A stretch of DNA of 64,000 bases from Streptomyces sp. NBC_01551. Its GTDB lineage: Bacteria; Actinomycetota; Actinomycetes; Streptomycetales; Streptomycetaceae. The notes under the pieces are model-generated. The model was not told the DNA's origin. It worked only from the letters and a program-made list of their open reading frames with translations, and made no database searches. Both the position numbers and the translations under genes were made by a program. Positions 3,405 through 33,799 of this stretch are shown here, piece after piece. The first letter of the stretch is position 1; every line of letters begins with the position of its first letter. The DNA lies in assembly GCF_026339935.1 (NCBI RefSeq), contig NZ_JAPEPX010000001.1:4987501-5051500 (forward strand). Direction: 5' to 3'.

Positions 3405-3917
3405 CTAGAAGTAGCCGGTCTCGCCGTCGAGGAGTTCGCGGATCGTGTCGAGGTGGCCGGCGTGCCGGGCGGTCTCTTCGATCATGTGGAGGAGCATCCA
3501 GCGCAGGGAGGCCGCTCCGGACTTGAAGTCGCGGTTGAGGCCGGTCTGGTCGAGGGCGTGGGCCGCGGTGATCTCGTTGGAGGCCGCGCACTGGGCGTCG
3601 TACTCCTCCAGGAGCCGGGCGAGCGGGACGCCTTCGACCTTGAAGTCGAGGTCCTCCTCGTCACCGAACTGAGGGTTCTCCGGGGCCTGCTGGTTCAGGA
3701 AGAGGACCTGGAACCAGCAGTGTTCCGTCCAGCGCATGTGGGAGATGAGCCCGGCGACGGTCATCAGAGGGGAGTCGGGCAGGACGACCCGGTGGGCGTC
3801 CTCTTCGGAGATCCCCTCACATTTCCACCGGACGATCGAGCGCTGGAGGTCGAGCCAGCCAACGAGCTGAGTGCGTTCGTCTGCCGTGAAGTCCGGCCGG
3901 GTGCGAGGTAGGGGCAT
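3405..3917 (-). CDS. DinB-like (DUF664) four-helix protein, 170 aa
   Basis: Member of the DinB/YfiT/maleylpyruvate-isomerase superfamily of metal-binding four-helix bundles, many of which act as thiol-dependent transferases or isomerases; the substrate here is unknown. The three-histidine metal site is suggested by SHMRWTEH (about residues 59-66) and by HMIEETARHAGHLD near residue 145-158. The full length of 170 aa fits the family. On the minus strand a TAGCCT hexamer lies eight bases before the ATG, so the transcript is probably leaderless. It lies 63 bases downstream of osaC in the same direction but has its own promoter-like element and terminator. Confidence 0.88.
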   Translation of the reverse strand: MPLPRTRPDFTADERTQLVGWLDLQRSIVRWKCEGISEEDAHRVVLPDSPLMTVAGLISHMRWTEHCWFQVLFLNQQAPENPQFGDEEDLDFKVEGVPLARLLEEYDAQCAASNEITAAHALDQTGLNRDFKSGAASLRWMLLHMIEETARHAGHLDTIRELLDGETGYF

Positions 3918-3980
3918 GGGCGCCGAGGCTAGTGCGGGTCGGGGGCACGCGCATCGGGTTTTCCGCGGCGCCCCGTGGCG

Positions 3981-6503
3981 TCAGTCGCCCTCGCGTTGCT
4001 GGGGGACGCGGAAGGCGAGGATGGCCATGTCGTCCGAGGCGGGTTCCGCCGCGAAGCGTTCCACGGCGCGCAGGACGCGGGAGGCCACGGCGCCGGCGGT
4101 GAGGCCGGTGCAGGTGGTGAGGACCTCCGTGAGGCCGTCGTCGCCGAGCATGCGGGTGCCCTCGCGGCGTTCCGTGACGCCGTCGGTGACGCAGAGGAGG
4201 ACGTCGCCCGGGTCCAGGGTGAGGGTCTGCTCGTAGAGGTCGAGGTCGTCGATCACGCCGAGCAGGGGCTGGGGCTCCGCCGCCGGGACGACCTCGCCGT
4301 TCGGGCGCAGGCGGAGGGGGAGCGGGTGGCCCGCGCAGACGACCTTCATCAGGGCGCTGCCGTCCGGCTGGGGGTGGAGCTCGCCGTACAGGAGGGTGAG
4401 GAAGCGGCTGCGGGCGCCCTCGTCGAGGATCGCCGCGTTGAGGCGCTCCAGGACCGCCGGGCCGCCCAGGCCCTCGCGGGCCAGGAGGCGCAGGGCGTGG
4501 CGGGCCAGGCCCGTGACGGCGGCCGCCTCGGGGCCCGTACCGCAGACGTCGCCGATGGCGAAGCCGTACGCGCCGTCGCGGATCGGGAAGACGTCGTAGA
4601 AGTCGCCGCCGACCTCGTTGCCCTCGCCGGCCGCGCGGTAGATGACCTCGACCTCCATGCCGGGGATGGCGGGGGAGCCGGGCGGCAGCAGGCTGCGCTG
4701 GAGAGAGCGGCTGATGGCGGTGCGCTCGGAGTAGAGACGGGCGTTGTCCAGGGCGAGCGCGGCCCGGCGGGAGAGGTCCTCGGCGAGTTCGAGGATCTCC
4801 TGGCGGAAGTGCTCCTCGGACGGCTTGCCGAGGGTGAGCAGGCCGATGACGCGGTTGCGGGCGAGGAGCGGCAGGACCACGGTCTCGCCGCCGACGGCGA
4901 GCGCCGTCTCGGGCCAGGGGCGGGCGCCGGCCTCGCGGACCGGCTCGGGCGGGCTGACCCGGGAGAGCAGGGCCTTGAGGCCGTCGATGCGCTCCTCGTC
5001 CTCGTGCAGGACGTAGGAGAGGAACGGGTCGGAGGACTGGTCGGCGATGGTGTAGACGGCGCACCAGGTGGCGAGGGTCGGGACGGTCATCTGGGCCATG
5101 AGGGCCAGGGTCTGGTCCCGGTCGAGGGTGCCGGCGAGCAGGTCGGACGCCTCGACGAGGAAGGACAGGGAGCCGCGGCGCAGCCGTTCCAGCTCGCCGA
5201 GGCGGGCGGACTCGACGGCGAGGGCGATGCGGTCGGCGGCGAACTGGAGGCGCAGGGCCTCGGCGTTGGAGTAGCGCCCGGGGTTCTCGGTGGCGACGCC
5301 GAGCGAACCGGTGAGGCGGCCCTCGACCTTGAGGGGGACGGTGATCACCGAGCGCATGCCGGTGGCCTCCAGCAGCGGTACGGCTCCGGGGACGGCGGCG
5401 AGGTCGTCGTGGACGGCGGGCATGCGGGCGGAGCCGTAGCGGTTGGTGCCGGCCTCGACGGGGACGCGGGCGAAGCGCTGGCGGGTGGAGGGCAGGCCGG
5501 TGGTGGCGCGTACCTCCAGCTCCGTTTCGTCGTCGGTGGCCAGGAGGAGGAAGGCGGCGTCCGCGTCGAGCATGTCGCGGGCCCGTTCCACGGTGCGCTG
5601 GAGCAGGCCGTCGAGGTCGTCGGGGGCGGGGGAGCCGATGAACACCTCGAAGGGGTCCGCGGGGCGGGGCTCGGTGAGCCCGGCGTCGGACGTGGCGACG
5701 CGTACGGGGGTCTGGAGCAGGGCACGTTCGTCGTCGTGGACCAGGAGGCAGACGATGGACGGTTCGCCGTGTGCGTCGCGGACCCGCAGGTGCGAGGCGT
5801 AGACGGGGATGACGCGGCCGTCGGCGCCGCGGATGCCGTAGCTGCCCTCCCAGCGGGACAGGCGCAGGGCCTCGGCGATGCCGGTGCCGGTGCCGGGGGT
5901 CTGGGGCCAGGCGGCGAGTTCGGCGAGGGGGCGGCCGAGGACCTTGTCGGCGGAGTACCCGAAGACGTGCTCGGCGTCCTCGTTCCAGGCGGAGATGCAG
6001 TCGGCGGCGTCGATCTGGAGGACGGCGACGCGGACGCGGCTGTCGGCGAGGGGGAGGAGCTGGTCGGGGACGACGGGGCCGGCGGACCGGGTACCGACCG
6101 GTCGGTCGGGCAGGTCGAGGCGGAACCAGACGTGTTTGTGCGTGGCCGTGTACTCGACGCCCCAGCGGGTGGCGAGCGCGGCGCACAGCATCAGGCCGCG
6201 GCCGCTCTCCCGGTCGGGGTCGGCGTAGGGGCGCTCGTCGGGGTGGCGCAGGGGGAGCTCGCGTTCGGGGTACCGGTCGGCGACCTCGACGCGCACGCCG
6301 TCCTCGGCCCGCAGGCACAGCACCTCGGCGCGGGTTCCGGCGTGGACCACGGCGTTGGTGACCAGCTCGCTCGTGAGGACCACCGCGTCGTCGACGATGT
6401 CGGCGAAGCCCCAGCCCTGGAGGGTGTCGCGGACGAACGCGCGGGCGGCGGCGACCGACCGCCCGAGAGGGTCGAAACTGGCAGCCGCCCGAGCCGTGAT
6501 CAC
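3981..6503 (-). CDS. osaC: OsaC-type multidomain stress regulator: anti-sigma kinase, PAS, GAF, PP2C phosphatase
   Basis: An 840-aa cytoplasmic regulator. Order of domains: RsbW-like HATPase (about 20-145; [12 protein letters not shown] with the catalytic Asn near residue 50), PAS (about 160-260), two GAF-like regions (about 290-610) and a C-terminal SpoIIE/PP2C phosphatase (about 620-840; GGDFYD near 632-638 and SDDMAILAF at the end). It is divergent from osaA, the arrangement of S. coelicolor osaC (SCO5747), which is reported to modulate SigB after osmotic stress; by that model the kinase domain binds the sigma factor or an antagonist. A GTG start is preceded by AAGGAG. No membrane segments. 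Identity rests on domain order plus the osaA/osaB neighbours. Confidence 0.93.
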
Positions 6504-20196: not shown

Positions 20197-20305
20197 TGTT
20201 TGCAGCCCTGAGTGAACACGACATCGCTCCCCGCACGGCCGCGGCGCGAGGCGGTACGGTGGGGCGTGAAGGTTACGGCTACACGGTCAGAGGAGGGAGC
20301 CACCG

Positions 20306-20689
20306 ATGATTCTGCTCCGTCGCCTGCTGGGTGACGTGCTGCGTCGGCAGCGCCAGCGCCAGGGCCGTACTCTGCGCGAAGTCTCCTCGTCCGCCCGAGT
20401 TTCGCTCGGCTATCTCTCCGAGGTGGAGCGGGGGCAGAAGGAGGCATCCTCCGAGCTGCTCTCCGCGATCTGCGACGCGTTGGACGTACGGATGTCCGAG
20501 CTGATGCGAGAAGTCAGCGACGAGCTGTCGCTGGCCGAGCTGGCACAGTCGGCCGCGGCGAGCGAACCGGTGCCGGCACCGGTACGCCCGATGCTCAATT
20601 CGGTCTCCGTGACCTCGGTCACGGGTGGCCCGCCGGAACGGGTGACCATCAAGGCGCCCGTGGAAGCGGTGAATGTCGTAGCCGCGTGA
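20306..20689 (+). CDS. clgR: ClgR: transcriptional activator of clp protease genes, 127 aa
   Basis: Cro/CI-type HTH regulator (about residues 10-68; [20 protein letters not shown]). In actinobacteria ClgR switches on clpP1P2, clpC and, in some species, DNA-repair genes, and is itself a ClpP substrate. The protein ends in VVAA: a C-terminal Ala-Ala is the known degradation signal of Streptomyces ClgR, so feedback proteolysis is likely. GAGGAGGGAG lies close before the ATG. Position after cinA and upstream of recA matches the conserved actinobacterial order. Confidence 0.93.
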
Positions 20690-31624: not shown

Positions 31625-31675
31625 CGCCGCGCACCGACTGCCTCGAACGGGTGGCGGGTGGGACAGACTGGGGTC

Positions 31676-32956
31676 GTGGCAGCGACTGAAGACACGACCG
31701 ACCAGGCAGACGGGGCAGGCGCGGCAGCCCGTGTGGGGCCGCCCCGCCAGGAGCCCGCCGGCAGCCCCGGACCCGCCGCGAGCCCCGAGCCCGCCGGGGT
31801 CCACGGGCCCCCCGACCCGCCCGACCGGGGAGGAGCCGCGGCGGCGGCCCGGATGCCGCGCTGGCTGCCGCGCGCGGTGATCCTCGTACTGGCCCTCTAC
31901 GCCTGCTTCCAGCTCGGCAGCTGGGCTTTCCACCAGCTCGTCGGGCTGCTCGTCAACATCCTGATCGCGTTCTTCCTCGCCCTCGCGGTCGAGCCCGCCG
32001 TGGCCAGGATGGCGGCCCGCGGGATGCGGCGCGGGCTCGCCACCTTCCTGGTCTTCCTCGGGGTGTTCGCCGCGGCCGTCGGCTTCGTCGTCCTGCTCGG
32101 CTCGATGCTCGCCGGGCAGATCGTCGCCATGGTGGGCGGCTTCCCGGGCTACCTCGACTCGGTGATCAGCACGATCAACGAGACCTTCCACACCAAGCTG
32201 TCCCGGCTGGCGATCCAGGACAGCCTGCTGCACTCGGACTGGCTGCAGAAGTACGTGCAGAACAGCGCGACCGGCGTGCTCGACGTGTCCGCCACCGTGC
32301 TCGGCGGGCTCTTCAAGCTCCTGACGATCGGCCTGTTCTCCTTCTACTTCGCCGCCGACGGGCCGCGGCTGCGGCGCGCGCTGTGCTCCGTCCTGCCGCC
32401 CTCCAAGCAGTCCGAGGTGCTGCGCGCCTGGGAGATCGCCGTCGCGAAGACGGGCGGGTACCTGTACTCGCGCGGGCTGATGGCGCTGATCTCCGGCGTC
32501 GCGCACTACGTCGTGTTCGTCGTCCTGCAGGTGCCGTACGCGCCCGCGCTCGCGGTGTGGGTGGGGCTGGTCTCCCAGTTCATCCCCACCATCGGCACCT
32601 ACCTGGCGGGCGCGCTGCCGATGCTGATCGCGTTCCCGGACTCGCCCTGGTACGCGCTGTACGTGCTCGGCTTCGTGGTGATCTACCAGCAGTTCGAGAA
32701 CTACGTCCTGCAGCCGAAGCTGACCTCGAAGACGGTCGACATCCACCCGGCGGTGGCCTTCGGGTCCGTCATCGCGGGCACGGCCCTCCTGGGCGCGGTC
32801 GGGGCGCTGATCGCGATCCCGGCCGTCGCCACGCTGCAGGCGTTCCTCGGGGCGTACGTGAAGCGGTACGAGCTGACGGAACGCGCGGCCGGGGAGCCCG
32901 CGACTACTGCTTCTTCTCCTCGGCTGCGGCGAGGAAGGCTGCCAGGGCCTCGTTGA
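31676..32956 (+). CDS. AI-2E family (UPF0118) membrane transporter, 426 aa
   Basis: Polytopic permease of the AI-2E/PerM family; members include a putative AI-2 exporter and Na+/H+ antiporters, so the substrate is open. An N-terminal Ala/Gly/Pro-rich cytoplasmic tail (about 60 residues) precedes seven or eight membrane segments. The family block GLVSQFIPTIGTYLAGALP and QQFENYVLQPKLTSKTVDIHP is intact. GTG 31676 was chosen because CAGACT lies six bases upstream; GTG 31658 is an alternative. The last 53 bases overlap the end of the convergent Clp-N gene. Upstream neighbour is the DUF3046 gene. Confidence 0.9.
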   Translation: MAATEDTTDQADGAGAAARVGPPRQEPAGSPGPAASPEPAGVHGPPDPPDRGGAAAAARMPRWLPRAVILVLALYACFQLGSWAFHQLVGLLVNILIAFFLALAVEPAVARMAARGMRRGLATFLVFLGVFAAAVGFVVLLGSMLAGQIVAMVGGFPGYLDSVISTINETFHTKLSRLAIQDSLLHSDWLQKYVQNSATGVLDVSATVLGGLFKLLTIGLFSFYFAADGPRLRRALCSVLPPSKQSEVLRAWEIAVAKTGGYLYSRGLMALISGVAHYVVFVVLQVPYAPALAVWVGLVSQFIPTIGTYLAGALPMLIAFPDSPWYALYVLGFVVIYQQFENYVLQPKLTSKTVDIHPAVAFGSVIAGTALLGAVGALIAIPAVATLQAFLGAYVKRYELTERAAGEPATTASSPRLRRGRLPGPR

Positions 32957-33665
32957 CGGTCGCCTCGGCGGCGGCCTTGTCGACGCCGAGGCCGCTGAAC
33001 ACGCCCTCGCCGTTCTCGAGTTCGAGGAGGGCGAGCAGGATGTGCTCGGTGCCGACGTAGTTGTGGCCCAGGCGCAGGGCCTCGCGGAAGGTGAGCTCCA
33101 GGGCCTTCTTGGCGGAGGCGTCGAAGGGGACGAGGTCGGGGACCTCCCCGGAGGCCGGGGGCAGGGCGGCGGTCGCCGCGGCGCGGATGTCCTGCGGCGC
33201 GATCCGCTGGGCGCTCAGGGCGAGCGCGGCGAGGCCCTCGTCCTCGGCGAGCAGGCCGAGGACGAGGTGCTCGGTGCGGATCTCGGGGTTGCCGGCCGCG
33301 CGGGCCTCGTTCTGCGCGGTCACGACGACGTTGCGGGCGCGGGGGGTGAAGCGGCCGAAGCCCTGGTTGGGGTCGATGCCGCCCTCGCCCTCCTTGTCGG
33401 CCTTGGGGACGAAGCGCTTCTGGGCGGCCTGGCGGGTGACGCCCATGCTGCGGCCGATGTCGGTCCAGGAGGCGCCGGAGCGGCGGGCCTGGTCCACGAA
33501 GTGGCCGATGAGGTGGTCCGCGACGTCACCGAGGGACTCGGCGACGACGACGGCGCCGCTGAGCTGTTCGAGGGTGTCGGAGTGGACCTTCTTGATGGCC
33601 TCGATCAAGTCGTCGAGGCGTACCGGGTTGGTCATGCGAACGGGTTCCACCGAAGGGTTCGTCAT
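32904..33665 (-). CDS. HTH protein with two Clp N-terminal (Clp_R) repeats, 253 aa
   Basis: No ATPase domain is present, so this is not a Clp unfoldase. An N-terminal helical part holds an HTH-like segment (SWTDIGRSMGVTRQAAQKRF, about residues 65-85). Two Clp_R repeats follow: FTPRARNVVVTAQNEA... with EHLVLGLLAEDEG (about 105-165) and FDASAKKALELTFREA... with EHILLALLELENG (about 180-245). In ClpC/ClpA this domain binds adaptors and substrates. The protein thus looks like a DNA-binding regulator that senses Clp clients or adaptors; this is inference. TACGGT lies seven bases before ATG 33665 with TTGACA 18 bases further up; an internal ATG at 33635 is the alternative. Divergent from recA. Confidence 0.9.
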   Translation of the reverse strand: MTNPSVEPVRMTNPVRLDDLIEAIKKVHSDTLEQLSGAVVVAESLGDVADHLIGHFVDQARRSGASWTDIGRSMGVTRQAAQKRFVPKADKEGEGGIDPNQGFGRFTPRARNVVVTAQNEARAAGNPEIRTEHLVLGLLAEDEGLAALALSAQRIAPQDIRAAATAALPPASGEVPDLVPFDASAKKALELTFREALRLGHNYVGTEHILLALLELENGEGVFSGLGVDKAAAEATVNEALAAFLAAAEEKKQ

Positions 33666-33670
33666 AGGCG

Positions 33671-33712
33671 CAACCGTAGGTTGACAGTCGAGAGGGTGTC
33701 AACCCTGGGTTG
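33671..33712 (-). promoter_or_regulatory. Promoter and twin palindromic operator of the HTH/Clp-N gene
   Basis: Read on the minus strand: TTGACA (33702-33697), 18-base spacer, TACGGT (33678-33673), then seven bases to the ATG. Two 13-bp palindromes of the form CAACC-NTN-GGTTG overlay it: CAACCGTAGGTTG at 33671-33683 covers the -10, and CAACCCTGGGTTG at 33700-33712 covers the -35. Centres are 29 bp apart. The arms also form GGTTGACA-N10-TGTCAACC. Binding here should block RNA polymerase; the encoded HTH protein is the obvious candidate ligand. Confidence 0.72.
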
Positions 33713-33772
33713 TCAGGTGGCGTGGTGGTGGACTTGCCGTATGGCGGCGCTCCCGGGTCTGGTGTGGCGCGC

Positions 33773-33799
33773 TTGACAGGGAAATCGAACATCTATTCT
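33773..33799 (+). promoter_or_regulatory. recA promoter
   Basis: TTGACA (33773-33778) and TATTCT (33794-33799) with a 15-base spacer. The predicted start near 33806 leaves a leader of about 100 bases before the recA ATG. Confidence 0.7.

Follow-up and report, generated by a model that had tools for sequence, protein, structure and literature searches.

The stretch of DNA analysed here (the window: 64,000 nucleotides of contig NZ_JAPEPX010000001.1 from Streptomyces sp. NBC_01551) carries, on its minus strand and divergent from recA, a clpC2-type gene at 32904..33665. This is an open reading frame (ORF) with an ATG start whose 253-aa product joins a dimer domain with a predicted helix-turn-helix (HTH) to two Clp_N repeats, as judged from the ORF, from Pfam, and from structure-sequence matches. 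Pfam places Clp_N in two stretches of the protein (E 7.6e-24) and lists no ATPase or AAA family for it, which bears out the initial annotation's description of a Clp N-terminal double repeat without an ATPase. The NCBIfam Clp models score far below their cut-offs, with the AAA+ modules of a Clp ATPase not being found, and the HTH_28 match is weak, at 13.9 bits against a cut-off of 25. The double repeat spans residues 103-225 (32991..33359, minus strand) and is, by domain and sequence matches, homologous to the cyclomarin-binding domain of ClpC2 and ClpC1. Besides the clpC2 gene itself, a search of the whole genome at E 0.001 brings up two frames, one of 842 aa (ClpC1-like) and one of 886 aa, making three matches in all.

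The sequence CAACCNTNGGTTG occurs exactly at 33671-33683 and again at 33700-33712, a spacing of 29 bp, within two operators that match GTCAAC-n5-GTTGAC at 10/12 and 11/12 positions, respectively. The proximal operator (GTCAACCTACGGTTGCG on the minus strand, 33669..33685) lies 3 nt before the ATG, and its centre holds the -10-like element TACGGT (33673..33678, minus strand). The distal operator (GACAACCCAGGGTTGAC on the minus strand, 33698..33714) supplies, with its right arm, the -35 element TTGACA (33697..33702, minus strand), leaving a spacer of 18 bp. TACGGT agrees with TATAAT at just 3/6 positions, and a strict sigma-70 scan found no promoter here (0 calls). The promoter reading is nonetheless favored by a comparison of 80 named loci, the best 80 of 569 confirmed matches, retrieved by the motifs DHLIGHFV and GASWT[DE]IG: the -35 is TTGACA in 42 and TTGACG in 38, hence one or the other in 80/80, and the proximal operator centre is TA in 77/80, whereas the dinucleotide at the distal centre varies. 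Because the -10 lies 7 nt before the ATG, the transcript is probably leaderless.

Single sites of this kind are common and therefore weak evidence (with up to 2 mismatches, 7 are observed in the window against 10.0 expected, which is not unusual); the telling feature is the tandem pair. It is the sole pair in the window, and no pair arises in 40 resamples of 64 kb drawn from a first-order Markov model. A scan of the genome for palindrome pairs, one of the checks put forward in the initial annotation, yields one tandem site in 7.05 Mb, whether the search is for the two-site pattern (spacing 29, ≤3 mismatches) or for exact CAAC-n5-GTTG cores separated by 12-20 bp. The coordinates, the geometry, and this uniqueness within the window thus uphold that annotation's placement of twin palindromes over the -10 and -35 of a leaderless promoter.

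Conservation of the palindromes upstream of orthologues, on which the same proposal was staked, could be followed in several partly overlapping sets of loci (family, named, class-level, and G349 family). In the family set, where at least 10/12 was asked of each site, the pair is found at 41 of 42 distinct loci, window included (47 rows, five duplicates), the locus without it, L036, being a 39% paralogue. All 80 named loci carry the pair, 2-3 nt before the ATG and with a spacing of 28 (46 loci) or 29 (34 loci); these represent Streptomyces, Micromonospora, Rhodococcus, Prescottella, Actinomadura, Saccharopolyspora, Amycolatopsis, Actinokineospora, Blastococcus, Microtetraspora, Sphaerimonospora, Streptacidiphilus, and three metagenome-assembled genomes. 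Here, too, belong the class-level loci (30/30, 15 of them from the window's genus) and the G349-family set (31 of 32 rows, comprising 30/30 loci L172-L201 and the paralogue L202, whose pair is altered and weak). Four of these loci, L172-L175, form a separate group within the G349 family, with ClpC2-type proteins of 229-233 aa that are 38% identical to the window protein, D at the position of R198, and slightly altered operators.

Among 200 family genomes, the clpC2 gene (E ≤1e-40) is present in 154 and the exact tandem pattern in 146, as opposed to 4 for a reversed control pattern. Ten further matches, at E 7e-35 to 6e-31, were left out of the gene count as probable ClpC1. Gene and pattern occur together in 145 genomes, the gene alone in nine, the pattern alone in one (G062), and neither in 45, a tally of co-occurrence per genome in which adjacency was observed only for the listed places; five genomes have the pattern at two places. 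Eight of the nine gene-alone genomes were looked at, and all eight have the pair with mismatches. In a wider sample of the class, 75/296 genomes have a match (E ≤1.8e-77) spanning both domains, 20 of the 75 being among the genomes of the window's genus (n=28). The protein also matches 25 plasmid records, five of which cover 80% or more of the query, and four phage records over the Clp_N part. Two mycobacteriophages, Myrna (NC_011273.1, 152889-153242) and Phabba (NC_054714.1, 151763-152128), show ~47% identity to the Clp_N half, and one Phabba record names the matching gene 'Clp family protein, ATPase domain'; these stretches may be decoys carried by the phages, or else proteins resembling ClpC.

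The closest described relative of the protein is mycobacterial ClpC2 (Rv2667). In a search of solved structures the N-terminal domain aligns with 8ADA, a fragment of Rv2667 (E 7e-29), identifying it as the dimer domain, and in Foldseek this domain alone gives 8ADA as its sole match below E 0.001; in VIA, the KorB/ParB rows are middling for it. For the C-terminal domain (CTD), the ClpC2 CTDs 8B9O and 8AD9 rank above ClpC1 N-terminal domains, with 56-58% identity to the former versus 43-44% to mycobacterial ClpC1 entries. By alignment, the cyclomarin contacts F96, F172, E181, and Q94 of Mycobacterium tuberculosis (Mtb) ClpC2 correspond to F103, F181, E190, and Q101 here, and the dimer salt bridge D46-R57 to D50-R61. 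Mycobacterial ClpC2 represses its own gene through paired GTCAAC-n5-GTTGAC operators at a leaderless promoter (PMC10030653, Taylor et al. 2023), with one CGTCAAC-n5-GTTGACG copy 1-2 nt before the ORF and a second upstream, over the -35 and -10, and the Streptomyces pair fits this published pair in sequence. Cyclomarin A releases the autorepression, raising the mRNA 263-fold, and ClpC2 is protective by sequestering cyclomarin A from ClpC1 (PMC10030653).

We consider it very probable, by analogy with the mycobacterial system, that the gene is the Streptomyces clpC2 in the mycobacterial (Rv2667) sense, encoding a self-repressing Clp decoy. The two systems resemble one another in domain order, dimer residues, cyclomarin contacts, operator sequence, placement of the pair over the -35 and -10, and leaderless start; they differ in host, in the position of the Streptomyces gene beside recA in a small clade, and in the slight degeneracy of its operators. 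ClpC1, the ClpC ATPase, shares the Clp_N double repeat with its cyclomarin-binding face, whereas the Streptomyces protein is without AAA+ modules, has an added domain with a predicted HTH, and is 43-44% identical in the common part. The HTH-like segment of the window protein, residues 38-89, also matches the M. tuberculosis antitoxin RelI (9SDC, E 1.7e-4), but RelI has 84 residues in the solved chain, lacks Clp_N, and binds a toxin, without evidence for DNA binding (PMC13284704). The Streptomyces 'ClpC2' of PMC9765437 is a Clp-ATPase working with ClpP1P2 and has only its name in common with the 253-aa protein. We found no description of a Streptomyces protein of the Rv2667 ClpC2 type in the open-licence literature, and the legend to the published operator alignment (Fig. 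4b of PMC10030653) names seven species, Streptomyces not among them. The initial annotation was mistaken in holding that the family had no described function, since ClpC2 was published as an autorepressor and drug sponge in 2023 (PMC10030653). The core mechanism is thus already in print, and what had been proposed from the letters of the sequence, self-repression at the twin palindromes and sensing by the Clp-N half, comes close to it and is well supported, by analogy, by the match to mycobacterial ClpC2 and by operator conservation.

By this analogy, a ClpC2 dimer held together by the N-terminal helical domain would use its helix-turn-helix to occupy the two operators and so, with both promoter elements of its leaderless gene covered, hold expression close to zero. 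The other, C-terminal half, a presumed mimic of the ClpC1 N-terminal domain, would be filled by a Clp-directed cyclic peptide or by surplus ClpC1 clients, upon which the dimer would leave the DNA and ClpC2 would be made in excess, as a decoy keeping the ligand from ClpC1. Autorepression, derepression by cyclomarin, and protection have been shown in mycobacteria alone, and we infer that they operate likewise in Streptomyces.

A first question is what the natural signal would be. It might be no toxin but endogenous clients, unfolded proteins or adaptors occupying the Clp-N half under stress, with ClpC2 then serving as a holdase that relieves ClpC1; we regard this as possible, if somewhat doubtful. 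Heat lifts M. smegmatis clpC2 ~2-fold, and surplus ClpC2 slows the degradation of casein by ClpC1P (PMC10030653), but the heat effect is to be set against the 263-fold mRNA rise with cyclomarin. The gene is also widespread and was not observed beside peptide-antibiotic genes, 0/96 clpC2 flanks having at least two kinds of nonribosomal peptide synthetase motif or a ketosynthase (KS) motif by crude motif sets; a role in self-immunity within antibiotic clusters was rejected on the same count. Eight long ORFs near clpC2-type copies encode a subtilase, a kumamolisin-type peptidase, a glycosidase, a BTAD regulator, an FtsX permease, a PIG-L/CBM9 protein, an AAA_23 protein, and one product without a match. 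Arguing against endogenous clients as the signal, the pocket residue F103 is F in 117/117 homologues, though by alignment this position differs in 5/31 parsed rows of the G349-family set (L178, L179, L180, L196, and L202). Among the same 117 homologues the F181 position is mostly F (60) or Y (53), and E190 is E in 111; overall, alignment shows drift of F103 to Y/L/W/M, of F181 to Y/L/V/I/A, and of E190 to D/Q/R/G. A tyrosine in the pocket need not abolish cyclomarin binding, because entry 3WDE is titled as ClpC1 F80Y bound to cyclomarin. Ilamycin and ecumicin, for their part, are reported to bind ClpC2 without inducing it (PMC12913811).

A second question is which part of the protein reads the operator. 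AlphaFold2 models give helices at 48-62, 67-74, and 78-85, the last two forming, together with the conservation, a predicted helix-turn-helix at residues 67-85 (33411..33467, minus strand) with RQAAQKRF as the recognition helix. Because the named loci had been selected by motif, conservation was gauged in 40 sequences picked without the HTH motif; mean entropy there is 0.18 bit over residues 50-88, compared with 1.20 and 0.83 bit over the Clp_N repeats. We infer that the HTH, and not arginines of the CTD, would contact the operator. An autorepressor otherwise the same could instead read DNA through its CTD (Mtb R185 and R189, here R194 and R198), with the N-terminal domain for dimerization alone, as Taylor et al. 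proposed; their double arginine mutant binds more weakly in electrophoretic mobility shift assays and shows a 2.0-fold rise in expression (PMC10030653). R194 is R in 117/117 aligned homologues, and locus L164, which weighs against the HTH, lacks both arginines and also the canonical pair. The published crystal constructs (4-72 and 94-252; PMC10030653), on the other hand, both omit helix 78-85 (window numbering), and the helix bearing R194 is common to ClpC1, whose binding to this operator is weak and of little specificity (PMC10030653). Seven loci retain the operator pair in spite of a changed arginine: at the R198 position L172-L175 have D (with up to two arm bases per site differing), L176 has K, and L201 has L, while L188 has G in place of R194. 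Of the 117 aligned homologues, 8 have H, K, or L at R198. The recognition-helix residues Q79, A80, Q82, and R84, meanwhile, are invariant in all 31 parsed rows of the G349-family set. Reading by the CTD is, to our mind, unlikely.

Beyond the clpC2 promoter, the genome carries many single sites. With up to 2 mismatches, GTCAAC-n5-GTTGAC has 313 single sites per strand versus 142 for the reversed control, an excess that is unexplained, while CAACCNNNGGTTG with up to 1 mismatch has 92 versus 143. Exact CAACCNNNGGTTG occurs three times, as the two clpC2 operators and at C1:4297853. This third copy (C1:4297853-4297865, L033 3354-3366) is single, has poor outer arms, and stands 40 bp before a GTG ORF (3406-4158) that putatively encodes a GntR-type regulator. 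Elsewhere, tandem GCCAAC-n5-GTTGGC-like sites 30 bp apart are seen at L034 3706-3752 and L035 4087-4133 (G143:C4 and G187:C5); the 8-kb stretches around them contain no ClpC2 match, and they may belong to another repressor or to chance.

Sites with 0-1 mismatches number 11 among the matches listed, ten of them inside open frames of high G+C content at third codon positions (GC3) and the perfect one outside. This lone GTCAACGGCGAGTTGAC (12/12; C1:1283430-1283446, L218 1201-1217) lies a short way ahead of a cobalamin riboswitch (RF00174, L218 1269-1352) and 210 bp before an ORF that is presumably CbiB/CobD-like. The site is kept at 11-12/12 upstream of the orthologue in 23/23 clpC2-bearing genomes of the genus (its own included) and in 8/14 that lack clpC2 (a 15th being left out for want of upstream sequence), and is perfect in 18/23 versus 3/14 (Fisher P 0.0013 and 0.0016, ignoring kinship); control windows inside the gene of this locus reach only 7-8/12. 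A near-identical distal operator, moreover, stands at clpC2 of L187. Control of this locus by ClpC2 is improbable all the same. The site is perfect in three clpC2-less genomes (G009, G110, and G119), so that something else may keep it; its right arm, GTTGAC, might be nothing more than a -35; it is single, with no partner; and its base 7 is a purine, which is never so in the 160 operators of the named loci and so in just 3 single operators of the G349-family set (L187, L190, and L197). We therefore regard it as a lead and not a finding, though it could be one of the other sites that the initial annotation allowed for.

The initial annotation's suggestion that the protein might also control divergent recA is unsupported and highly improbable: the two genes do have an intergenic region in common in the window, but recA, listed in 47 of 48 same-genus genomes with clpC2, lies within 10 kb of it in 6 of these 47 (at least 340 kb away on the same contig in 17, on another contig in 24) and in the flank of 12/80 named loci (≤8 kb a side, 15/80 flanks being shorter), and the operators end ~58 bp before the recA TTGACA, so that co-control was rejected on synteny and promoter layout. 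The 12 recA-flanking loci are all close relatives (identity at least 74.6%), often with room for other genes between, and the recA neighbourhood of clpC2 looks recent and incidental. It speaks against co-control, too, that the recA promoter region has a putative LexA-like box of its own, GAACATCTATTC at 33787-33798 (3 matches in the window versus 1.4 expected).

Some further features of the locus may be recorded. An open frame at 20270-20689, 13 kb from clpC2, is presumably ClgR-like, by a motif and not by a family search. An AI-2E-family transporter ORF (31658-32956, plus strand) converges on clpC2, the two 3' ends overlapping by 53 bp (32904-32956). The protein begins MTNPSVEPVRMTNP (33633-33665), a repeated MTNP start common to the close relatives L004-L006 and perhaps a local duplication lengthening the N-terminus.

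To the published mechanism the present analysis adds the conservation of the operator pair, its single tandem site in the gene's own genome, the local character of the recA adjacency, a predicted HTH reader, and a candidate cobalamin site; it offers a testable correction as to the DNA-reading helix and one candidate second target. More tentatively, ClpC2 proteins might be widespread actinobacterial 'decoy repressors' of constant HTH and operator but drifting Clp_N pocket, in which the HTH reads the DNA and which in some Streptomyces act also at the cobalamin-riboswitch promoter; because HTH and operator are nearly fixed across genera while the pocket drifts, different copies would answer different Clp-directed peptides or phage proteins. 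The clpC2 promoter would be a ready reporter for discovering Clp-targeting compounds. Several ClpC1-poisoning peptides are made by Streptomyces, and their production in a genus with a conserved, self-repressing decoy suggests that defence against Clp poisons is a general actinobacterial trait and not a mycobacterial one.
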